DNA from: a virus
Reading direction: 5' to 3' (one strand)
DNA length: 27,222 bases
Virus record (IMG/VR): IMGVR_UViG_3300020169_000088
Span: 1-27,222 of that record
The position numbers were made by a program, and so were the translations under genes. Below are positions 878 through 25,339 of the stretch, piece by piece. The notes beneath the pieces are model-generated. The model did no database searches. It was not told the origin of the DNA and worked only from the letters and a program-made list of their open reading frames with translations. Position 1 is the first letter of the stretch, and each line of letters opens with the position of its first letter.

Positions 878-1402
878 TTATTTGCTCCTAAGGATTGGAT
901 GAACTGGTTCACCGCTAGGGTGAGCCACGCGGTCAAAGATTTCGAAGCCGACAAACTCCACCCACTTTAGGTGTAACTCGTTGTCAGCATGGACGAAGTT
1001 GTAGATTTGGCTATGGTCACCCTGAAGTATCTCAACTTCATCTCGGGAGACCCGTAAAAACCCCATGACGTGCTTATCTACTGCTGTACTGCCCAAGCCC
1101 CAGACGATGCCGTCTTTGGTGGTCCCGTACATGATCAGTGGGGTGTCTTTGTGGGAGAGCGTCCGACATACTGTGGACTGCTCAAAACATTCTGTCAGGG
1201 CTTGCTTAGGCTCCTGCCCTGATAGGAGCATGATCTCACGTCTATCAGCGTGGCGCATCGAGGCTGCAATAGCCCCGATGTCACCTTGTGTCGCTGGGCG
1301 AGCGTTATACTCGCCGCGCGTGAGGGTTGTGTTTGCCGAACCAATCGACGTGGAGGATCGTGCAGCCGAATGGGCTGTCGTTCCTGAGGGTAATTTCTGC
1401 AT
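878..1402 (-). CDS. gp13-like internal virion protein (start uncertain)
   Basis: The 174-codon frame contains a region resembling T7 gp13 (138 residues), an internal virion protein related to acetyltransferase-fold proteins: YNARPATQGDIGAI near residue 32, then a strand-rich middle and HLKWVEFVGFEIF near the end. That match implies a true start around residue 28-32, just at the gp12 stop, yet no ATG, GTG or TTG lies there. The only canonical upstream start, ATG at 1402, would overlap gp12 by 98 bases. The next in-frame ATG (SMRHADRR) would cut into the domain. Either a rare start codon or the long overlap is used. The stop is one base before the gp14 ATG. Confidence 0.6.
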   Translation of the reverse strand: MQKLPSGTTAHSAARSSTSIGSANTTLTRGEYNARPATQGDIGAIAASMRHADRREIMLLSGQEPKQALTECFEQSTVCRTLSHKDTPLIMYGTTKDGIVWGLGSTAVDKHVMGFLRVSRDEVEILQGDHSQIYNFVHADNELHLKWVEFVGFEIFDRVAHPSGEPVHPILRSK

Positions 1403-2033
1403 TATCGTTCCGAGTCATTACAGGCACACGCAATGTCCCTGAAGATTTCGGGAGGTCACCAAAGGTTGACGACGTGTAGCCTACGCGAGGGCCAGCATGA
1501 TATGTTTTGGCTGGACGCCCACGGCTTGAGACATCCACAGAGAACGTGGCAGTGTCAGTGTAGGCAATGTTGATATAGTTGATTGTCAGTCGCCCATCGG
1601 TAACCAAGATTTCACCCTGAGGTTTCCGAGGTGCCCTCATGTAGAGGGTCGAGAGCTTCACCTCCATATCGTAGGGAATGCCCACAACAAGATCAGCAGC
1701 CGAATAATCTCCCTTAACGAAGAGGTTTCCACCCTCCGTATAGCGGTCGATATTTACGGTATGTCCGCTGGTCAAATCCCACACCTCTACGAGGTTGGTC
1801 CCGTCATAGGGAATGGTTAGAAGTGTCTCTGGGTCACCGCTTGAAGATATCCCACTCTGATAGAATGTCTTTGTTGGGGTTACCTGCATATCGAGACGCA
1901 GCAACTCATATCCAAATAGGTCTTGTTGGTCGCGAATATCGATCTTAGTGAGTTCACGCTCAGTTCCAAGGGAAGACACGCAGTAGAGATAGTTGCCGTA
2001 GATTCCGATAGATTCGATATCTCCGATACTCAA
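1305..2033 (-). CDS. Tail tubular protein B (gp12), 3' part after the frameshifting duplication
   Basis: This frame encodes the C-terminal 242 residues of the gp12-like tail tube/nozzle protein. Its first ~65 residues (MSIGDIESIGIYGNY onward) repeat the end of the upstream gp12 fragment almost exactly, because a 227-base tandem duplication separates the two. Removing one copy joins this frame to the upstream fragment and gives one intact ORF of 1,082 residues. The internal ATG at 2033 is therefore probably not a natural start. Gene 12 proteins form the end of the tail tube in T7-like virions. The stop overlaps the region where the gp13-like gene should start. Confidence 0.75.
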   Translation of the reverse strand: MSIGDIESIGIYGNYLYCVSSLGTERELTKIDIRDQQDLFGYELLRLDMQVTPTKTFYQSGISSSGDPETLLTIPYDGTNLVEVWDLTSGHTVNIDRYTEGGNLFVKGDYSAADLVVGIPYDMEVKLSTLYMRAPRKPQGEILVTDGRLTINYINIAYTDTATFSVDVSSRGRPAKTYHAGPRVGYTSSTFGDLPKSSGTLRVPVMTRNDNAEITLRNDSPFGCTILHVDWFGKHNPHARRV

Positions 2034-2287
2034 ATCCCAGCGGCACCACGCAGATTGGACTCACCGCTTGAAGATATCCCACTCTGATAGAATGTCTTTG
2101 TTGGGGTTACCTGCATATCGAGACGCAGCAACTCATATCCAAATAGGTCTTGTTGGTCGCGAACATCGATCTTAGTGAGTTCACGCTCAGTTCCAAGGGA
2201 AGACACGCAGTAGAGATAGTTGCCGTAGATTCCGATAGATTCGATATCTCCGATACTCAAATCCCAGCGGCACCACGCAGATTGGAC
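1834..2287. repeat. 227-bp direct tandem duplication inside gene 12
   Basis: Copy one covers 1834-2060 and copy two 2061-2287. Comparing them base by base shows one difference (T at 1937, C at 2164), and the copies abut with no spacer. Because 227 is not a multiple of three, the second copy shifts the reading frame and splits gene 12. It is either a real, recent duplication or an assembly artefact joining two strain variants. Confidence 0.95.
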
Positions 2288-4780
2288 CTTAGTTTGTCCG
2301 TCGTACTCGAACTTGTAGACCCAGATAGATTGAGGGTCTGCTCGATTGAGTACAAAGACAGCTTTATTGTCGCGAGATGCTTGGATGTAGCGAGCATCAC
2401 CCGTAATGAACTGCGGACACTGGATCGTTAAATCCGAGGACAACAATCGGTCATCTTGAGCAGCACCCAAGAAGAACTCACGGGCTTGCGTGTATCCGCC
2501 AATTTCAGCCGTAAAGAAGGCAGACTGACCGATGGCATGGGGACGAACCGCTGTTGAGGTTTGGTAGTCTCCGATTTGCTTGGCTGAGACTGTTTTAGGT
2601 GTCAGAGCTTGGGAGTTCGTGTTGAGAGAGAACTGGCCTTTGTCAGAGAATAGAATTAGCTCATCCTGAACAGCCAATGCCGCGTGTATTAACTCGACAC
2701 GTCCAAATCGTAACTCAACGTCAACCCGGTTGTCATCTTCAAGTTGAACACAGGTTGAGCGGTAGAATTGCTCGTAATAGCTGACCTCAGACAGAACCAC
2801 AGATTCACCGGCACAAAACCCGAGCCGTCCCTGAAAGAGGAACACGTCACTAAGTTGTTGCCCCACAAAGGACGGGGTTTCGTTGGAAACAGCATCACCT
2901 ACTGCACGTCCACGCCATGAGTATGGCTGGACAAGCCAGCTACCATCACCAAGGCGGATCAAGACTTGAGGCATGGTGTCCGGGTCAAGTTCTTCAGCCG
3001 CATCAAAGCCTACAGTCTCAGCCCATCTACTACCGCTCCACTCCACGTAGTAGTCATCTGTACCGTCATCCGACTGGCCGCCTACTCGCACTACCTCTCC
3101 AACCTTACCTCTATCAGGTAAATCTTCGAAGTCAGTTACATTTCGACCAGCGTAGGAAGTGGAAGAATCCATCGTTCCAGTAGCACTATTCCCATATTCG
3201 TTTAGAGAGTCGATATAGAAGGGTTCAGTACAATTAATCTCAATCCGGCCCGTGCCTGTGTTGTAGGACGTAGCCGCAAAATCAGCTTCAAAGCTATTGC
3301 CATCACTATCAGTGTCGATAACAGAAGTGGCAGCAATTGAGGCAGCAAGTTCACTGTGAGTTTGATCGTTGTTAGCAATACGAGTTGTGAATAATTCTAC
3401 CTGACCATTTTGAAGTGTACGCGGATTAACAAGTACAATCTCCCTGCGGCGATCTTGGTTAGACGGACCTGCAGGATGAATTGACTGGTTCTTCTTAGGG
3501 TCAGAACGAGTGTCTACCAACCTTGTATCATCAGTTATCGCTGCAACTGTTACATTCTGGAAGTCTTCATAAGCAGCACTGATGTAACACTGTTGATTAG
3601 TGGTAATTGTAATCTCTTCATCAGAGTTTATCGCTACTCCAGTAATCTGTAAGGTGATCGCTGTCCCATCTGATGCCGTAAAGGTCTTCTGTTTACCCGT
3701 AAGACGTTTCACAAACATCTGCCAATATACAGAAACACCAGTAAAGTATCCGTTATCCAGTTCAAGGCCGGGGCTACTTACGGAAACGAAGCGAGTCTCG
3801 GACCATGAGTCGGCCCATTCCCGGGAGCCTGTGGCAATCGCCTTAGCCGCATAATCGCCGTAGCTTGAACTGTAAGACGCGACTGGATGGGCGGGTGTGA
3901 TTACGGTTGGGTGATTTCGCGTGGGCGGATCGTTGAACGCGTTGGATGTTTTGATATATTCCCACCAAGGGTCAGAGCCGTCTAGGGCCACAGGAACCAT
4001 GTCACTAGCATACTCCCATTCGTTGGTACGTATTTCATGGTAAGTTTGTCGGTGAGCTTGCATCAAATTTGAGCCGACGGATTTTAGTACCGTATCGGTG
4101 GCAGTGTGGTTGCGCCGCTTAAAATAAAGCGTCGTTCCAATGTCCCTGTAGTCTTCAAAGGGATCCCATGCAAAGGTCTGCTCACTCAGGTCCGCGTTAA
4201 CGTGCTTTACCGAAAGCTCCAACCGAGCTTCGTAGCTTGGGCTTTTAGTGGGGGCAGTGGGGTCCACTAGAAATGCTTCTGAGGAATTATGTTGTAGTTT
4301 TTTATATTTAAGGTAGTGACTGGTACGTGTTTGCTGGGCCGCTGGTGCTTGTACGACTTCTTCTTTTAAGGCTGTCTGCCGTGTTCTATTAATTAGGAAC
4401 GTATAGTCACCAGCGGTTACTGCTCGAATGTTCTTTGAGGGGTCGCTGGTTGTCAGATAATCTTGCGCCCGACTATCGAGAGTAAGGTTCATCTTGTCCC
4501 CGTACAGATCGTAAACCTCCACGGTTCCGTCTGAGTTGGTCACAGTAAAATATTTCTCGTTCAAATCACGGTCAATTGTATGAAAGAACGATGTTGTACC
4601 GATAGCGCTCGAAGTCAGGCTTGAAACGAACTCAGCGCCCCTTCGTTTAGATAACCCTTGGATAGCCGATGGATAAGCATTGACCATCGTTTGGGTAGCT
4701 TCCTTAATACGGGTTTCGGGCGGCTGCTGGGTAATGCCCCCCGTCAGCTTGCCAATATGATCAGTGATCTGTGCCATCAT
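2030..4780 (-). CDS. Tail tubular protein B (gp12-like), 5' part
   Basis: This 916-residue frame starts MMAQITDHIGKLTGGITQQ, typical of T7 gp12-family tail proteins (N-terminal GG[IV][ST]QQP segment, then PSAIQGLSKRRGAEF). The family forms the hexameric nozzle at the tip of the podovirus tail. T7 gp12 is 794 residues; the repaired protein here would be about 1,082, so it carries extra material in the middle. The frame ends abnormally with ESNLRGAAGI because of the 227-base duplication. ATG at 4780 overlaps the gp11 stop as ATGA. A second ATG at 4777 has better spacing from AAGGA and may be the true start. Confidence 0.85.
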   Translation of the reverse strand: MMAQITDHIGKLTGGITQQPPETRIKEATQTMVNAYPSAIQGLSKRRGAEFVSSLTSSAIGTTSFFHTIDRDLNEKYFTVTNSDGTVEVYDLYGDKMNLTLDSRAQDYLTTSDPSKNIRAVTAGDYTFLINRTRQTALKEEVVQAPAAQQTRTSHYLKYKKLQHNSSEAFLVDPTAPTKSPSYEARLELSVKHVNADLSEQTFAWDPFEDYRDIGTTLYFKRRNHTATDTVLKSVGSNLMQAHRQTYHEIRTNEWEYASDMVPVALDGSDPWWEYIKTSNAFNDPPTRNHPTVITPAHPVASYSSSYGDYAAKAIATGSREWADSWSETRFVSVSSPGLELDNGYFTGVSVYWQMFVKRLTGKQKTFTASDGTAITLQITGVAINSDEEITITTNQQCYISAAYEDFQNVTVAAITDDTRLVDTRSDPKKNQSIHPAGPSNQDRRREIVLVNPRTLQNGQVELFTTRIANNDQTHSELAASIAATSVIDTDSDGNSFEADFAATSYNTGTGRIEINCTEPFYIDSLNEYGNSATGTMDSSTSYAGRNVTDFEDLPDRGKVGEVVRVGGQSDDGTDDYYVEWSGSRWAETVGFDAAEELDPDTMPQVLIRLGDGSWLVQPYSWRGRAVGDAVSNETPSFVGQQLSDVFLFQGRLGFCAGESVVLSEVSYYEQFYRSTCVQLEDDNRVDVELRFGRVELIHAALAVQDELILFSDKGQFSLNTNSQALTPKTVSAKQIGDYQTSTAVRPHAIGQSAFFTAEIGGYTQAREFFLGAAQDDRLLSSDLTIQCPQFITGDARYIQASRDNKAVFVLNRADPQSIWVYKFEYDGQTKVQSAWCRWDLSIGDIESIGIYGNYLYCVSSLGTERELTKIDVRDQQDLFGYELLRLDMQVTPTKTFYQSGISSSGESNLRGAAGI

Positions 4781-6810: not shown

Positions 6811-7041
6811 CTACTGGTTCCGAGAGCGGTTTGTGGATCTCTTTTGGATCCGCAGGTTACTCATGGAGTTGTTCTTTGGGTTGCGATCTTTGTGGTCGAT
6901 ATCCTTGCCACGAAGAGCCGCTTTACCCTTCTTTTTGATCATCAATCGCCGTGCTTTCTTTCGCGCATCATTGCGACGACGCTGGGAAGGCTTTGACTGA
7001 TAATTCTCGTATTCTTTGCGGTAGTTACGTTTAGTAGCCAT
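6811..7041 (-). CDS. Small basic HNH-like phage protein
   Basis: This 76-residue, very Lys/Arg-rich protein contains GKDIDHKDRNPKNNSMSNLR near residues 45-64, the DH...N...N arrangement typical of the beta-beta-alpha metal motif of HNH nucleases. Similar short proteins are common beside structural genes of marine T7-like phages. I know no experimentally proven role; a DNA-binding or nicking function in packaging is possible. ATG at 7041 is preferred over GTG at 7044 because GGAGG lies nine bases upstream of it. It overlaps the o-spanin-like gene by 11 bases. Confidence 0.65.
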   Translation of the reverse strand: MATKRNYRKEYENYQSKPSQRRRNDARKKARRLMIKKKGKAALRGKDIDHKDRNPKNNSMSNLRIQKRSTNRSRNQ

Positions 7042-7261
7042 CACAAAAGGCCTCCCGTTTTGTGTTGTTCATGAAGACCTGACTGACGGTGCCTAAAGAA
7101 TCGTACTTACTTGCGTAGAGGTAGTCCCATTGGCTGCACGCTTGCTCAATCCCTGAACCAGCCCTTGTCGCGCATCCGCTGATGCTGCTGATCAGGACTA
7201 AGACGCAGACCATCGGAAGCAGCGTCGAGAGCAGCGCGAGACCGTCTATCGGCGTCCTCAT
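7031..7261 (-). CDS. Candidate outer-membrane spanin lipoprotein (Rz1-like)
   Basis: This 76-residue protein starts with a lipoprotein signal: a short charged start (MRTPIDG), a hydrophobic core and lipobox ISGC with Cys at about residue 30. The predicted mature part is 47 residues anchored in the outer membrane. Its first half lies inside the 83-residue membrane protein gene in another frame and it then extends past it, the overlapping layout seen in many two-component spanins that disrupt the outer membrane at lysis. ATG at 7261 has GGAA/AAGAAG upstream. It has few prolines, unlike lambda Rz1, so the assignment relies on lipobox plus architecture. Confidence 0.6.
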   Translation of the reverse strand: MRTPIDGLALLSTLLPMVCVLVLISSISGCATRAGSGIEQACSQWDYLYASKYDSLGTVSQVFMNNTKREAFCDGY

Positions 7262-7397
7262 CTTCTTTTTCCTTGTGTTGTTTTACAGCGGCTCTTTGAG
7301 AGACAAAGACAACCGCAACCAGACCAAGGAATGCCGCAGCGACCTTGGCCTTACCTGCGTCAAACCAAGTGAGAATGAATGCTAATTGTTCCATCAT
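7146..7397 (-). CDS. Small membrane protein, candidate inner-membrane spanin
   Basis: This 83-residue protein has an N-terminal transmembrane segment (about residues 18-36, VAAAFLGLVAVVFV) followed by a highly charged helical tail (KQHKEKEDEDADRRSR). That is the layout of an i-spanin (Rz): one anchor and a periplasmic coiled coil. It is shorter than most i-spanins. An embedded lipoprotein gene in another frame supports the pairing. Alternatives are a holin or another small virion membrane protein. The start overlaps the stop of the preceding gene as ATGATG; either ATG (7397 or 7394) could be used. Confidence 0.55.
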   Translation of the reverse strand: MMEQLAFILTWFDAGKAKVAAAFLGLVAVVFVSQRAAVKQHKEKEDEDADRRSRAALDAASDGLRLSPDQQHQRMRDKGWFRD

Positions 7398-7645
7398 TTA
7401 CGGCTCTTGGTTCCAGAACATTTCCATTTCGCCCGTGACAAACGCAGGGGTGAGTTAGGGTTCTTTGCAGCCTTGGAATGGGATTTCATCTGACCAGCGG
7501 ACCTTGCGCAATACGCATCCCCTTTGGATGTTCCGGGGCGAACACGGGGTCCACCACCTTTTGCTTTTCCTGCTTGGCCGTAGCTTACTTTTTTACCCGA
7601 AGAAGTGACTTTTACGGACGCCTTGCCCTTAGCAGGTTTCGCCAT
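7394..7645 (-). CDS. Small basic conserved phage protein (DUF6321-like)
   Basis: This 83-residue, Lys/Ser/Gly-rich protein has a C-terminal region GTSKGDAYCARSAGQMKS...NPNSPLRLSRAKWKCSGTKSR with two conserved Cys (in YCARS and WKCSG). It resembles a short domain common beside structural genes in marine cyanophages and pelagiphages, which I associate with DUF6321; I am not certain of the family name. The function is unknown. The charge suggests DNA or capsid-interior binding. It starts one base after the stop of the 47-residue gene upstream and its own stop overlaps the next start. Confidence 0.65.
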   Translation of the reverse strand: MAKPAKGKASVKVTSSGKKVSYGQAGKAKGGGPRVRPGTSKGDAYCARSAGQMKSHSKAAKNPNSPLRLSRAKWKCSGTKSRK

Positions 7646-7646
7646 G

Positions 7647-7790
7647 TCACTTCTTTTTCGGCTTAAAGCCGCCTGTCTTGTTCTTCATCTGAGAATAGGA
7701 CTTAGAAGACACTGTAGACTTACTCTTTGGGCGGCTGTTGCCAGCTTTCTTCCGAGCGTTGATGTTATCGTAGAGACCTTTACCGGGCAT
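7647..7790 (-). CDS. 47-residue basic conserved phage peptide
   Basis: The protein starts MPGKGLYDNINARKKAGNS and ends FKPKKK. Short proteins with an MPGKGLY-N-I-N-K/R start and Ser/Lys-rich tail are widespread next to head genes of marine podo- and myophages. The function is unknown, perhaps a minor virion or DNA-binding protein. It starts one base after the stop of the 220-residue gene and ends one base before the next ATG, so it is tightly packed within the late operon. Confidence 0.75.
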   Translation of the reverse strand: MPGKGLYDNINARKKAGNSRPKSKSTVSSKSYSQMKNKTGGFKPKKK

Positions 7791-7791
7791 C

Positions 7792-8454
7792 CTACTTTCC
7801 TTTCTGTGCGTTGAAGAGGCGTGACCAGAAAGACCGTTGAGGCTTCTCTGGGGGTTGGTACGTCATCTCTTCAGGTGTAACTTCGATGCTATAACCACCG
7901 TCACGCCAAGCTTCTCGCAAGCCGTGTATCATCCCCCAAAATAACTCATCGATCACAGCCTGATCAGACAGGTCGTAGACGATGTTGAAGGCTTCGAAGC
8001 CGGGAGCAGCGCTAGAACGAGCGCCTGCTTCCCACTTCCCCATAGCGACCATCACTTGGTACAGCCGGAGGTATCCCGCAGGGTCGCCCCATAGGTCGAT
8101 CACCTCGTACATGCCAAGGCCAGCGTCGCGAGCTACAGTGTTACCGTAGGTGTCGGAGTTACCTGTGGAGTATGCCTTCATAATTGCAGCGATGTTCGTC
8201 TGCCCCGGCTTAACTTCAGCACGTCGAATGACGTAGTGTCCGTAATAGGCCGCACCGCCATATACTGAGTTAAAGGCCGGGGTAGGTAATTGGGAACCAT
8301 CTGAGGCAGGCAGTGTGGCTGTATCGATTGCGCCGAACCTTGCCTCATGATTGTCACGACTGGCACCGATGGCCCCAATGTTTCGTAATCGAACACTGGC
8401 AGGCACAGACTTGTCGTGTAGGTCGTAGGCCCAAGGGCCAGTGTAGATTTTCAT
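7792..8454 (-). CDS. Hypothetical protein between scaffold and capsid (220 residues)
   Basis: I do not recognise this protein. It starts MKIYTGPWAYDLHDK; the middle is mixed alpha/beta with several Tyr/Gly-rich stretches (VYGGAAYYGHYVIRRAE), and residues ~130-180 are helical (LRLYQVMVAMGKWEAG, VIDELFWGMIHGLREAW). It ends with a Pro/basic tail (PPEKPQRSFWSRLF). There is no signal peptide or clear membrane segment. T7 has no gene at this position, directly between scaffold and capsid, so a head accessory, decoration or virion protein is a reasonable guess. Start ATG 8454 lies nine bases after the scaffold stop. Confidence 0.75.
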   Translation of the reverse strand: MKIYTGPWAYDLHDKSVPASVRLRNIGAIGASRDNHEARFGAIDTATLPASDGSQLPTPAFNSVYGGAAYYGHYVIRRAEVKPGQTNIAAIMKAYSTGNSDTYGNTVARDAGLGMYEVIDLWGDPAGYLRLYQVMVAMGKWEAGARSSAAPGFEAFNIVYDLSDQAVIDELFWGMIHGLREAWRDGGYSIEVTPEEMTYQPPEKPQRSFWSRLFNAQKGK

Positions 8455-19521: not shown

Positions 19522-21162
19522 CTAGAAGTCGTCGTTCGACGGATCATCAAACGATTTGGTTTCGGTAGGCGTATCACCGGAAATAAATTCCGAGAGACGC
19601 CCGGTGGTGGGGTCGTAGGTCAGTTGGCAGGTCACGCCCGTCAATCCCGCGTACCTATTTTTTAATACGCGGACCTTGGTGCGGTGCCGTTCAGCGGGGT
19701 CTTCCGCTTGCTGGTCACGCTCAAGTCCGAGGCACATGTCACTGAGCTGGGCGATGGCAGCAGAGCCACGCAGTTGCGCTAGTGTGACCATGCCGCCGTT
19801 TTCATGGGCGATACCGTCAGGGCGCTTGAGGTGGGAAACAACGATCATGCCGATGTCGAACCTAGACACGACCGTTCGAAGTCGGGTCATCAAAAGGTCG
19901 ATTAATTTGCGTTCGTCATTCGTCTCTGTGCCTGAAACCACAAGCGAAACGTGATCTAACACTATCCAGCCGCAGCCGTTGGAGGCCATGAACTTGATCT
20001 TGTCGATGATGTTGTCCACGTCGGACGAACCGAAGTGGTCGTAGAGCATCAGCCGTCCGTTTCCACAGGTGGCGTCGAAGGCTTCACGCTTGGTCTCATC
20101 GTCTACTTCAGTACCGTGGATATGCAGCGGCAGGTTACAGTGCGTCCCCATAAGGCCCAGCGCGGTACGCTTGACGCTCTCTTCTAGGAACAGACCGCCG
20201 ACCTTCTCGCCGTTACTCAGCAGGTGGTACATGATCTCGCGGGTAACCTGAGACTTGCCCATGCCTGAACCAGAGGTGATGGTAACGAGTTCACCTTTGC
20301 GCATGCCATAGGTAAGAGTGTTGAGGCCTTCCCATGGGTACGGGATGGTCTCAAAGTTCTCTACTTTGGTCACCTCATCCCACAGATCAGCAGCATCGAT
20401 GACGCCATCAGGTCGGTAAGGGTGGGCATCCCAGAAGCACTGGACCAGCTCTTTGGCCTTGCCGTTGACGATGGCCTCGTTGGAATCCTTCGACGGGAGG
20501 TCAGCGACGAACACCTTGCCGGGTTCGAGTAGAGGGGCCACGGTCTGCACAGCAGCACGGCCAGCATCGTCCATGTCGAAGGCCAACACGATTTTCTCAA
20601 AACTTTCGAGCCAAGTGAGTTCCTGTTGGATCACCTTGGCGGCACCTTGAGCGCCGCTTGGGAGGGACACACAGGGCCACCGACTGCCCATTGCCTGATA
20701 CGCAGACAGGGCATCGATCTCGCCTTCGGTTATCACCAACATCTTCCCACCTTCGCGGAACAACTGCTGCCCATAAAAGCCAGCGTGGTTGGGGTTGCCG
20801 ATGGAGCGGAACTGTTTGTCTTTTCCTCGTACCTTCTGAGCTACGATGTCTCCATCTTTACGATACGAGGCAACCTGCAGAGGCTCACCGGATGTGGTGC
20901 AAAAATAGCCAAACTTGCGGCAGGTATCCTCTGTGATTTTACGGGAGGGGAGCGAGCGAAACTCGCCTGTGAGAAATTCTTTGTTGGTCACTTGCTTACT
21001 CTCCTTCCGTTCAATGGGTCCGTCCTGCTTGCGGGTCTTTCCACAGGAAAAGCACGTTGTGCCTCCATCCGAATATACCGCTAGGGCATCAGACGATCCG
21101 CAATCTCCACAAGCCTCATGATAGATGAAGTGTGATTCTTCATGACTTTCTGACATGCTCAT
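19522..21162 (-). CDS. Primase-helicase (T7 gp4-like)
   Basis: At 546 residues it is close to T7 gp4 (566). In order it has a zinc-binding module (Cys18, Cys21, Cys37, Cys40), a TOPRIM primase core (ITEGEIDALSAYQ around Glu146; DMDDAG 196-201), a linker and a RecA-like helicase with Walker A SGSGMGKS (297-304), WIVLDHVSLVVSG and HLKRP motif regions. It unwinds DNA and makes primers at the fork. ATG at 21162 has GGAGG four bases upstream and overlaps the amidase-like gene by 23 bases. A promoter motif lies in its 3' end. Confidence 0.95.
   Translation of the reverse strand: MSMSESHEESHFIYHEACGDCGSSDALAVYSDGGTTCFSCGKTRKQDGPIERKESKQVTNKEFLTGEFRSLPSRKITEDTCRKFGYFCTTSGEPLQVASYRKDGDIVAQKVRGKDKQFRSIGNPNHAGFYGQQLFREGGKMLVITEGEIDALSAYQAMGSRWPCVSLPSGAQGAAKVIQQELTWLESFEKIVLAFDMDDAGRAAVQTVAPLLEPGKVFVADLPSKDSNEAIVNGKAKELVQCFWDAHPYRPDGVIDAADLWDEVTKVENFETIPYPWEGLNTLTYGMRKGELVTITSGSGMGKSQVTREIMYHLLSNGEKVGGLFLEESVKRTALGLMGTHCNLPLHIHGTEVDDETKREAFDATCGNGRLMLYDHFGSSDVDNIIDKIKFMASNGCGWIVLDHVSLVVSGTETNDERKLIDLLMTRLRTVVSRFDIGMIVVSHLKRPDGIAHENGGMVTLAQLRGSAAIAQLSDMCLGLERDQQAEDPAERHRTKVRVLKNRYAGLTGVTCQLTYDPTTGRLSEFISGDTPTETKSFDDPSNDDF
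19569..19589 (-). promoter_or_regulatory. Phage promoter motif inside the 3' end of the primase-helicase gene
   Basis: The minus strand carries TTTATTTCCGGTGATACGCC, identical over the 16-base core to the other copies. It is within helicase coding sequence (encoding FISGDTP) and 60 bases before the HTH gene, so it would drive the HTH, coiled-coil and polymerase genes. Internal promoters at this place exist in T7. Confidence 0.7.
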
Positions 21163-21595
21163 TCGCCTCCGTAGCCAATTCGATTAGGGGTTCATATCCC
21201 CCCGTCGTAGCTAGGAATTCGGGGGCAGAATGAATGGTCGCGTGGGGGTACTCCCGCGCCATCATTTCCATGAGGGTCAGGAAGTTTGCCTTTGCGAGTG
21301 GATCAAGAGTGTCCGGGTGCTTGCCATCCCAACCCAAAATGCCAACGCCCACCGAGGTCTCGTCGTATTGACCAAGGTGAGCGCCTACAGTTTGGTGATC
21401 GCGTGTCTCGGTGATGCCGCTGCGGGTCACACAGTAGTGGAAACCACACTGCAGATAACCTTTACGGCGAAACCAGCGGTCCATTTCGAGGGGGTTGTTG
21501 GGGGCTAGTCGGGAGTGGATGATGATGGCATCCGTCGCTTCCCGTTCGAGGGTCCACCGCTTGAGAAAAGTTTTGCTTGGCGTATCACCGTAAAT
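21140..21595 (-). CDS. T7 lysozyme-like protein, probably catalytically dead; unusual start
   Basis: The protein aligns with T7 gp3.5 (N-acetylmuramoyl-L-alanine amidase and RNA polymerase inhibitor): EREATDAIIIHS keeps the zinc His17, then RRKGYLQCGFHYCVTRSG and VGAHLGQYDETSVGVGILG. However Tyr46 is Phe (GFHY), and the C-terminal segment HSAPEFLATTGGYEP lacks the Lys128/Cys130 pair and apparently His122. No ATG, GTG or TTG occurs at the expected start; the frame opens right after the endonuclease TGA in the same frame. ATT at 21595, eight bases after GGAGG, would give 151 residues, equal to T7 lysozyme; ATG at 21484 would remove the first zinc ligand. A role limited to binding the RNA polymerase is plausible. 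Confidence 0.75.
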   Translation of the reverse strand: MYGDTPSKTFLKRWTLEREATDAIIIHSRLAPNNPLEMDRWFRRKGYLQCGFHYCVTRSGITETRDHQTVGAHLGQYDETSVGVGILGWDGKHPDTLDPLAKANFLTLMEMMAREYPHATIHSAPEFLATTGGYEPLIELATEANEHVRKS

Positions 21596-21599
21596 AAAT
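21579..21599 (-). promoter_or_regulatory. Phage promoter motif at the endonuclease/lysozyme junction
   Basis: The minus strand reads ATTTATTTACGGTGATACGC with the conserved core (A instead of C before CGGT). It begins at the endonuclease stop and covers the first codons of the lysozyme frame, so transcripts starting at its 3' end would carry the primase-helicase gene but not the lysozyme start. Confidence 0.7.
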
Positions 21600-22039
21600 C
21601 ATTCCTCCAGCCACTCTCTCGGCACAGGCTCATCTTTATGAAACTTGGCGTACAGAAATCCGTTCCGCTGACACCACATGGCGTAAGTAGTTTTGCTCTG
21701 TTTCGAGATGCGGGTGTTTGGGTTGTTGAATATGAATCGAATTTCAACCTCAGGGTTAGAGGCGCGAACGTGAAGGTGCTTCTGCCTGTCTACAGTCTGA
21801 AAGCGCCCCTTGGATTCCACGATAATTTGCTTGCCTGAACGGGTCGTGATGATGAAGTCAGGGGTGTAGGTTCGCTCCTTGGTGGGAGGGGTGTAGCGCA
21901 GCTTGATTTCTTCGTAGGAAAACGAAACGCCCAAGGCCGTTAAGCCGAGGGCGATGTCTAGTTCCAAACCTGAGCGATACCCTTCAGCCCTGCCGCGTCT
22001 GTCTCGCGCATGCTTATAAGCTTTTTTGGGTACGGCCAC
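21599..22039 (-). CDS. Endonuclease I (T7 gp3-like Holliday junction resolvase)
   Basis: At 146 residues it is close to T7 gp3 (149). The catalytic residues fit: Glu26 (RSGLELD), Asp61 (TYTPDF), Glu75 and Lys77 (VESKG). DRQKHLHVRASNPEVEIRFIF and the WCQRNGF region follow the family. It cuts branched DNA and helps degrade host DNA and resolve concatemers. The start is GTG at 22039, one base after the SSB stop; the open frame continues upstream to 22165 but only over SSB. It ends in WLEE just before an in-frame lysozyme homologue. Confidence 0.92.
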   Translation of the reverse strand: MAVPKKAYKHARDRRGRAEGYRSGLELDIALGLTALGVSFSYEEIKLRYTPPTKERTYTPDFIITTRSGKQIIVESKGRFQTVDRQKHLHVRASNPEVEIRFIFNNPNTRISKQSKTTYAMWCQRNGFLYAKFHKDEPVPREWLEE

Positions 22040-22720: not shown

Positions 22721-25339
22721 TTAGGAAAAGAAAAACTCAGACTGCAGCGTCTCGCGGATATCCAAGTTGCCCATTGTTGGGCGGGGAGGGAAAACAACAT
22801 CGGGTCCAGCAATCTCTCGCATACACAGTTCGTACTCACCCAGAGGGTCGTTGTTTTCGTAAAGCCTCACGAACTCTTCGCGGATCACCGCAGAGAACTC
22901 GCGGAAGTCCCGCGTACCCACAGCGAAACTATCGTGGATCATCGAAAATTCGGGGGACTGTCCCCGTAGCAGGACTATTTTAGACCAACGACGCACGACC
23001 ATACGGAGGTGTGTGCTGTCCTGTGCGTGGACCCAGTTTGGGGCGCACGAATTTCGATGTTGGCGAACGTCTTCCTGATCGAGCCACTGGCGGGTGGTTA
23101 GATCAACACGTTTAGCGGCAGCTTCAGCGTTCGCCGCCTTGCGCTGGGAATAATCGTAAATCCACACAGTTGGCTTAATCGTGCTTTCCTTTGGCCGATT
23201 GGTGCGCCCGACAAAGCCATCCGCAGTTTCCCACTGCAGGGGAGAGTTGGGATTAGCCTTTACTGCCGCACAGGATACATCCTGCAGCCACTTCATGATT
23301 TCCAAGCCCTTAACGACAACCTCAGGGATCGAGTCCCACACTAACTTGGCGACGAAGATGGTGAACCGGGAAAAGTTTTCGTGCGGTGATCCCTCGATCC
23401 TTTTGCGGTCGTAGTAGTATTCGCGAACGTACTTGCGGCAGCTATCCTCTTTGGCCGCATAGGGTACAGTCATGACCACACGCTTCAGCAGGCTGCGGTC
23501 GAACCCATACTCCAGTGCAGCACGGGCAAAATCTTGGGCCTGCTCGTAGTCAGCGTAATCCCCCAGATCACCCTTGGCGACAGCCTCCAGACGGGACTTG
23601 AATGGACCATTAGCCACAGCACCGTAGATGTCGTGCCGCTCAGGGCTGTCAGTGAGATTTACCATCTTGCCACCCACCTCATCACGGGACACCGCAGAGA
23701 GTACCTGCAGGCCGCTACAGGTGGCATCTACAGCCACAGGCATGCGGGAGACAGGCATGCGGGAGACGTAACCAAAACCTTGATCGGCATACTCGGCTAG
23801 CTCAATACAGGCTGCAAGAAAACAGGCAGGGCTATCGGCATCGGTCCACAGTAGTTGACCTTGAGGGTCACGGCCTACGGCCACCAGCTCATCGATGTTG
23901 TCTCGGGTCCACTGGATGCGGTCGTTGATGGGCAACTTATCGTGGCCCATAGCGTTAGCAGCAACGAACCTTATGCCGTCCATATCGGAATCCTTCTTAA
24001 TCACCTGACCCTGCGCAAATTGCAGTAAATGCTTATTCCAATCGCTACCCTGAGGGGACAGGGAGGAGGTGATTGGGTAGGCACGGCCACGGCTGTCCAT
24101 GTCCCAACAAAAGTAGATACGATTTTCATCGCGGAACTTGTTGGCAACCTCTAGCAGCGTGAGTGTTTGCAGCCGGGTCGAGCGGTCAGCACGTTCCTGC
24201 TCGTTGTACTGGTACAGGACAGTTTTGCAGGCCTTCTTGTCGGCCTCCCACTCCTCAGGGGTGAAGGCTGGCTTCACGGGCGGGTCAGCGCGGACGAAGC
24301 CGGGGACCAGATCAGCCTTGCGGTCAAACAGCCACTGCATGGTGTCGAGTACCTTGGTGTTGATCTTCCACCCAGTGCGCTGCATGGCGTTAAGGGCTGC
24401 GGATACATTCTCCACGCCACGGGTGTTCTGTATTTCGATTGAGTAAAGCTTGCGGGATTTCTTAACCATCGCAAAATTGCGAATATAGGTGGTGTAGTAC
24501 CCGCCCATCGCAAGGTTGTCCTTGCCCCAATCCATGGGTGGCACCAGCAGGGGCATAGCCGCGAACATGTCGGCACCAATCTTCATGATGCCGTCGTCAA
24601 TCTGTTGCTGCAAATCGGCGTGGATCGTTACGGTTACGTGGCGTCTGTTCTTCGACTCATAAGCACCGTCGCTGATGTCGATGGAGTTGGGGGCGGCTTG
24701 GTCCAACAGGTGGATCAGGGCTACTCCTGCCGTCATTACGTTACCTGATTTTTCCCAGCCATCTGGCTCAGTCATCAAGTTACGAGTGCGAGCCTGAGCG
24801 CGAACGTCCCGCTTTAGTGCGCGGATATTATCCTGCCGCCGCTGCGCATGGTGCATCAATTGTTTGATACCCTGCGTATCACGCGCGGCGAACTCTCGGG
24901 AGATAATCTCGGTCTTCAGGTTATCCATGATTTTACGACCGATGGTCTGCTGATCCTGTGCCTTGCCAGTCCGCGCAATCAAACCAAAAACTGTGTTGAG
25001 GGCAATGATGGCGATGTCTGAGGCGTCGAGGTGGCCCGTACCATCTAACAGGTTCTTCCATGCTGCTCGCGCACCACGTCCCTTGTAATCAAGGTTTTCC
25101 CTGATCAAGTCACGATAGGGTTCGAAGAGGGCGTTGACTACAGCCACCCCGGCGCGGTTCTCGTGGAAGTGTCCGTCCGCTTGCATTCGTTCAGCGTTGC
25201 GAGTGAACTTATCTTCTCCGACCTCACCGCTCCAGCGCTCCAGCGCCACCTGTCGGTCCATGAGTTCCTGACCGTAGGTCTCAACGGCTTTAGTATAGGC
25301 GTAGTGATCTTTAATCTTTGCGATATCTAGCTGGGTCAT
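22721..25339 (-). CDS. Phage single-subunit RNA polymerase (T7 gp1-like)
   Basis: From ATG 25339 (GGAG ten bases upstream) it is 872 residues; T7 is 883. Key elements are DMDSRGRAYP, catalytic Asp538 in VAVDATCSGLQ (T7 Asp537), Lys619 and Tyr627 in KRVVMTVPYAAKE (T7 Lys631/Tyr639), and His802/Asp803 in MIHDSFAVG (T7 His811/Asp812). It transcribes the phage genes from dedicated promoters. The frame extends to GTG 25384, but that part lies in the promoter motif. A five-residue tandem repeat, SRMPV twice (526-535), lies directly before the catalytic Asp. Confidence 0.95.
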   Translation of the reverse strand: MTQLDIAKIKDHYAYTKAVETYGQELMDRQVALERWSGEVGEDKFTRNAERMQADGHFHENRAGVAVVNALFEPYRDLIRENLDYKGRGARAAWKNLLDGTGHLDASDIAIIALNTVFGLIARTGKAQDQQTIGRKIMDNLKTEIISREFAARDTQGIKQLMHHAQRRQDNIRALKRDVRAQARTRNLMTEPDGWEKSGNVMTAGVALIHLLDQAAPNSIDISDGAYESKNRRHVTVTIHADLQQQIDDGIMKIGADMFAAMPLLVPPMDWGKDNLAMGGYYTTYIRNFAMVKKSRKLYSIEIQNTRGVENVSAALNAMQRTGWKINTKVLDTMQWLFDRKADLVPGFVRADPPVKPAFTPEEWEADKKACKTVLYQYNEQERADRSTRLQTLTLLEVANKFRDENRIYFCWDMDSRGRAYPITSSLSPQGSDWNKHLLQFAQGQVIKKDSDMDGIRFVAANAMGHDKLPINDRIQWTRDNIDELVAVGRDPQGQLLWTDADSPACFLAACIELAEYADQGFGYVSRMPVSRMPVAVDATCSGLQVLSAVSRDEVGGKMVNLTDSPERHDIYGAVANGPFKSRLEAVAKGDLGDYADYEQAQDFARAALEYGFDRSLLKRVVMTVPYAAKEDSCRKYVREYYYDRKRIEGSPHENFSRFTIFVAKLVWDSIPEVVVKGLEIMKWLQDVSCAAVKANPNSPLQWETADGFVGRTNRPKESTIKPTVWIYDYSQRKAANAEAAAKRVDLTTRQWLDQEDVRQHRNSCAPNWVHAQDSTHLRMVVRRWSKIVLLRGQSPEFSMIHDSFAVGTRDFREFSAVIREEFVRLYENNDPLGEYELCMREIAGPDVVFPPRPTMGNLDIRETLQSEFFFS
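23736..23765. repeat. 15-bp tandem duplication in the RNA polymerase gene
   Basis: ACAGGCATGCGGGAG occurs twice in a row (23736-23750 and 23751-23765) with no difference. It adds one in-frame SRMPV repeat (526-535) just before the catalytic segment VAVDATCSG. Related polymerases as I know them have a single SR[LM]PV there. Confidence 0.9.

Follow-up and report, generated by a model that had tools for sequence, protein, structure and literature searches.

The gp3.5 locus in a T7-like phage genome

The window, by which we mean the entire 27,222-nt stretch analyzed (positions 1 to 27,222 of IMG/VR record IMGVR_UViG_3300020169_000088), carries a T7-like genome that encodes an integrase, an RNA polymerase, ssb, endonuclease I, gp3.5, primase, DNA polymerase, and structural proteins. 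An open frame on the minus strand (21140-21598) lies between the gene for endonuclease I (gp3) immediately upstream (21599..22000, minus strand, 5′ end approximate; a longer ORF extending to 22165 matches Pfam PF05367 with E 1.1e-38) and that for the primase/helicase (gp4) immediately downstream (19522..21162, minus strand), which overlaps the end of the frame and was assigned by synteny with phage CRP-113. Read from an ATT codon, this frame comprises 151 codons plus a stop (21140..21595). The genome also encodes a single-subunit RNA polymerase (gp1; 22721..25339, minus strand) in which the catalytic residues D537, K631, Y639, and D812 are present, and which is the proposed partner of the protein described here. 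The nearest gene order is that of marine Roseobacter Autographiviridae such as CRP-113 (PMC11092137), and the window phage belongs to a T7-like, probably marine, family. Among isolates, the Roseobacter phages CRP-113 and CRP-114 rank with the closest in gene order, and CRP-113 is nearest to the window in both DNA polymerase (52%) and endonuclease I (56%).

The ORF at 21140-21595 is a homologue of T7 gp3.5 (T7 lysozyme) and resides at the gp3.5 locus; CRP-113 likewise has this gene flanked by endonuclease I and primase, and in T7 too it directly follows endonuclease I. Because searches of Pfam and NCBIfam yielded no match, its placement relies on PHROG 822 ('amidase'; E 4.6e-14), on a family profile that matched T7 lysozyme in the PDB (1aro_L/1lba; E 3.6e-16), and on its fold. 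Among the top matches of a Foldseek search with the predicted structure, whose confidence is modest (pLDDT 63.6, pTM 0.70), all were amidase_2/PGRP structures (1aro_L, E 5.8e-5), and comparison of this model with amidase_2 structures gave a VIA Z of about 9 over 117-122 residues (9.2 to 1lba). Homology to T7 lysozyme extends over T7 residues 7-125, and the two proteins share the fold, a single domain of ~150 aa, a gene located after gp3 and upstream of gp4, and a cognate single-subunit RNA polymerase encoded in the same genome. They differ in that identity is only ~25% and the N-terminus of the window protein is ~10 residues longer. By tblastn the homologue matched 1,138 phage records, and those listed are mostly annotated as lysozyme, amidase, or endolysin. 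Searches of phage records at the DNA level revealed no near relative, and none was found for the gp3.5 homologue among 84,980 bacterial and archaeal genomes.

Two other observations concern the surrounding genome. A separate ORF at 1305-2033 (minus strand) opens with a near repeat of the last part of the tail tubular protein B frame (2030-4780, minus strand), which suggests a local duplication, a gene split, or an assembly problem. A related contig carries a 703-aa ORF of unknown kind between MazG-like and ribonucleotide reductase genes (L130:1407-3518), and the window has no ORF of that length listed there.

Active-site residues in the window clade and in a second group of phages

The initial annotation described the protein as a dead amidase in which only the first zinc-binding histidine is clearly kept, Tyr46 is replaced by phenylalanine, and the C-terminal segment lacks the expected lysine and cysteine. 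Alignment with the T7 protein from its record agrees on each of these points. Of the three zinc ligands of T7 lysozyme, His17 corresponds to His27 of the window protein (codon 21515..21517, minus strand), which is the sole ligand kept; His122 corresponds to Ala124 (21224..21226, minus strand) and Cys130 to Glu135 (21191..21193, minus strand). The catalytic residues Tyr46 and Lys128 correspond to Phe52 (21440..21442, minus strand) and Gly133, respectively. A histidine in the sequence IHSAPEF is located close to the His122 position, but it is not a substitute for this ligand, since it lies two residues ahead and varies among relatives (H/H/N/T/T).

We extended this comparison to T7 gp3.5 and 104 homologues (105 sequences), scoring T7 mature positions 17/46/122/128/130. 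The combination H-Y-H-K-C is found in 82 of the 105 sequences, including those of CRP-113 and CRP-114, whose gp3.5 proteins, in contrast to that of the window, retain the full set and are presumed to be working amidases. A gp3.5 homologue of the window kind was found in nine other contigs. The window and the contigs designated L003, L004, L006, and L008 carry H-F-A-G-E, and L009 carries H-F-A-G-D; thus the zinc-ligand positions are occupied by H, A, and E or D in all six of these clade members, and the catalytic positions by F and G. The loss is common to all five distinct lineages of the clade that were found, in relatives 58-92% identical to the window protein, and because the same residues are missing in five lineages we consider it a fixed property of the clade rather than an error in a single contig. 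Within this pattern the replaced zinc ligands carry more weight than the catalytic residues, since phage HTVC031P combines F46 and S128 with all three zinc ligands. The disappearance of two of the three zinc ligands and both catalytic side chains strongly supports the loss of N-acetylmuramoyl-L-alanine amidase activity from the window protein. This reading of the residues is strengthened by their absence from every relative and by the existence of a second group of homologues that also appears to be catalytically dead.

This second group, which bears D-Y-R-T-G at the same positions, comprises the Roseobacter phages CRP-804, CRP-403, and CRP-118 together with 13 IMG/VR contigs (L034-L046). Its members have lost all three zinc ligands and have kept the gene at the same locus. 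They therefore resemble the window in the position of gp3.5, in the loss of the catalytic set, and in the retention of the gene; they differ in that the zinc ligands are replaced by D/R/G while Tyr46 is kept, in having an annotated ATG start, and in sharing only ~25% identity with the window protein. The gp3.5 genes of this group are annotated 'lysozyme' (L012:7833-8288, L016:7170-7595, and L017:6791-7216), and the main text of the paper that is the source of CRP-804, CRP-403, and CRP-118 does not mention lysozyme (PMC11092137). Within the limited literature collection searched, no paper on inactive gp3.5 was found.

The phylogenies are divided between a single and a double origin of the dead forms. 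A single origin is not rejected by the gp3.5 tree (p-AU 0.36), union of the two groups is marginally rejected by the DNA polymerase tree (p-AU 0.04), and the RNA polymerase tree joins them without strong support (94/93).

Probable AUU start codon and purifying selection

The frame of the gp3.5 homologue contains no ATG, GTG, or TTG before codon 38. At its beginning is an ATT codon (21593..21595, minus strand), located 8 nt downstream of a Shine-Dalgarno sequence, GGAGG (21604..21608, minus strand), that falls within the last part of the endonuclease I gene. The ATT is identical in three lineages (the window, L003, and L004-L006), in which it follows GGAGG by 7-8 nt, and the codon after it is variable (TAC/TCC/CCC). 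Near the same position, L008 has an ATG and L009 a GTG. Judging from this arrangement, translation probably starts at the AUU. The E. coli genes infC and pcnB are established cases of initiation at AUU, and expression from such starts is usually low and IF3-sensitive.

The gene is under purifying selection, with a dN/dS of 0.073 between the window and L003 at a dS of 0.55. Constraint is also strong in comparisons with more distant clade members, for which dS is near saturation. Codons 2-37 alone give dN/dS values of 0.21 (window-L003) and 0.10 (window-L004), and the former value indicates that the stretch ahead of the first ATG is translated and constrained. Given this selection, the gp3.5 homologue is kept as a functional protein.

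A different origin of the N-terminus, by readthrough of the endonuclease I stop codon to give a gp3-gp3.5 fusion, from the upstream GTG in L003, or from the ATG at codon 38, is unlikely, and would be compatible with function as a polymerase regulator. The window and L004 have the endonuclease stop in the gp3.5 reading frame, and in L003 an in-frame GTG precedes the ATT by six codons. However, the two frames differ in L003, and readthrough as a conserved mechanism is thereby excluded. Codons 2-37, which hold part of the region matching the RNA polymerase-contacting half of T7 lysozyme, are moreover under purifying selection, and the presence of ATG and GTG near the ATT position in L008 and L009 also argues for initiation at this site.

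Conservation is uneven along the protein. Identity to intact homologues is 34% over T7 residues 2-52, 25% over residues 53-110, and 17% over residues 111-150, the region that carries ligands 122 and 130. Intact homologues compared among themselves show the same downward trend (63, 56, and 49% over the same three regions), and the gradient in the window clade is therefore steeper but not unique. The most invariant blocks of the clade protein are QCGFHYCV and GWDGKHPDT.

Proposed regulation of RNA polymerase and the question of lysis

In T7 lysozyme, zinc is needed for amidase activity but not for inhibition of RNA polymerase, and residues 2-52 constitute the part that interacts with the polymerase (PMC5445346). 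The lysozymes of several T7-like Pseudomonas phages likewise inhibit their RNA polymerases, with the N-terminus being critical (PMC10138996). The best-conserved part of the window protein is the segment corresponding to T7 residues 2-52. By analogy with T7 lysozyme, the N-terminal half of the window protein would be the part that binds the single-subunit RNA polymerase encoded by the same phage, and this binding would damp transcription or shift it between gene classes during infection, with the probable AUU start behind a strong GGAGG keeping the level of the protein low.

Features of the polymerase bear on this proposal to differing degrees. Its C-terminal foot, counted from HD812 to the end, is 69-74 aa long in phages that carry gp3.5 (71 aa in the window) and 64-65 aa in phiKMV, LKA1, and P-SSP7, which are three of four phages lacking gp3.5. 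The fourth, SP6, lacks gp3.5 yet has a foot of ~70 aa, so the correlation is imperfect and foot length lends the proposal weak backing. None of the 17 polymerase residues that contact lysozyme in T7 is identical in the window. These residues argue neither for nor against binding, since they are also poorly conserved in phages whose lysozyme has an intact zinc site (1-6 of 17). A matched acceleration of RNA polymerase and gp3.5 relative to DNA polymerase in the dead lineages is a weak trend among pairs that are not independent. The earlier suggestion that the protein survives as a transcription regulator is thus favored by purifying selection, operon position, the conserved polymerase-contacting half, and the retained polymerase foot, but draws no support from the contact residues. 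Regulation of RNA polymerase by a protein devoid of amidase activity is the best available explanation of these sequence comparisons, in which binding and inhibition are inferred from the T7 system.

The invariant blocks QCGFHYCV and GWDGKHPDT might just as well be kept for a different partner or ligand. One such ligand would be peptidoglycan, bound without catalysis for the timing of lysis or for envelope sensing rather than for contact with the polymerase. The fold search places the protein in the same fold as the peptidoglycan recognition proteins (PGRPs), and non-catalytic members of this fold bind peptidoglycan (PMC8124813); these share with the window protein the Amidase_2 fold, a broken catalytic set, and a non-enzymatic role. 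They are secreted or receptor proteins of animals and have no RNA polymerase partner. No signal peptide or transmembrane (TM) segment is evident by eye in the window protein, its gene stays in the replication operon beside endonuclease I, and the second documented partner of the T7 protein is RNA polymerase, so we regard a role of this type as rather unlikely. Continued enzymatic activity through a reconstructed metal or catalytic site, composed for example of His27, Glu135, and one of Cys50, His53, Cys55, His73, Asp90, or His93, is improbable as well. His27 and these six candidates are invariant in the clade, and the Cys130 position is always E or D. Yet intact homologues show the same invariance of His53 and His73 (T7 47 and 68), neither of which is a ligand there, several of them also have Cys50, and conservation is lowest in the segment that holds the positions of ligands 2 and 3. 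That the gene is a pseudogene or a sequencing artefact, with the missing start in codons 1-37 and the lost residues reflecting decay or a frameshift, is highly improbable, as it occurs in nine other contigs with no internal stop and is under strong purifying selection both upstream and downstream of the first ATG, and decay is refuted by this selection together with the losses shared among five lineages.

If the window protein acts as an amidase-less regulator of RNA polymerase, another phage protein would perform the cell-wall cleavage needed for lysis. The initial annotation placed this enzyme outside the window, a conclusion that is not established, as a lysis-like cassette lies inside it (7031-8454), between the scaffold and capsid genes. 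The cassette encodes an o-spanin-like lipoprotein (7031..7261, minus strand; PHROG 1275, E 2e-5, and E 9.5e-8 for a relative), a single-TM i-spanin-like protein (7146..7397, minus strand; the relative at L130:9825-10064 matches PHROG Rz-like spanins with E 9e-4), and an uncharacterized 220-aa protein of unknown fold (7792..8454, minus strand) that is a candidate lysis enzyme. The 220-aa protein matched nothing in Pfam or NCBIfam, nothing in PHROG at a significant level, and no phage record, and a fold search with its structure gave no significant match. Several relatives (among L137-L146) have a two-TM holin-like C-terminus fused to this protein and are encoded just upstream of spanin-like genes. 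Judged by this architecture, the family is possibly a lysin-holin fusion.

The annotation had also pointed to the region beyond the left edge as a place to seek an endolysin. This region is covered by the relatives L128 and L129 and by the 34.5-kb contig of L008, and the sole recognized peptidoglycan hydrolase domain there is a C-terminal CHAP/TIGR02594 tail-lysozyme domain in gp15, the internal virion protein, of L128 (L128:10816-13311). No recognized CHAP/TIGR02594 domain is present in gp15 of L129 (L129:8403-10946) or of the L008 contig, which rejects the gp15 domain as a general replacement.

Considered together, we find it reasonably probable that the protein, which is kept by selection, has lost its amidase activity, is translated from an AUU start, and binds and regulates the phage RNA polymerase, with lysis carried out by another protein. 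A broader scenario, which we offer tentatively and hold to be somewhat doubtful, is that a separation-of-function T7 lysozyme evolved once or twice, acting as an amidase-less polymerase regulator whose dose is limited by AUU, while the unrelated holin-fused family represented at 7792-8454 took charge of lysis. In sum, the window carries a catalytically dead gp3.5 that selection preserves and that probably starts at AUU. Database labels such as lysozyme or endolysin on genes of this kind would be wrong about function. Amidase activity is a suspected source of toxicity in expression systems (PMC10138996), and proteins of this type might find use there as non-toxic RNA polymerase inhibitors. T7 lysozyme is the textbook example of a protein with two jobs, and homologues in which one job is lost separate these functions by evolution rather than by mutagenesis; such homologues would indicate that regulation of the polymerase alone suffices to keep gp3.5.
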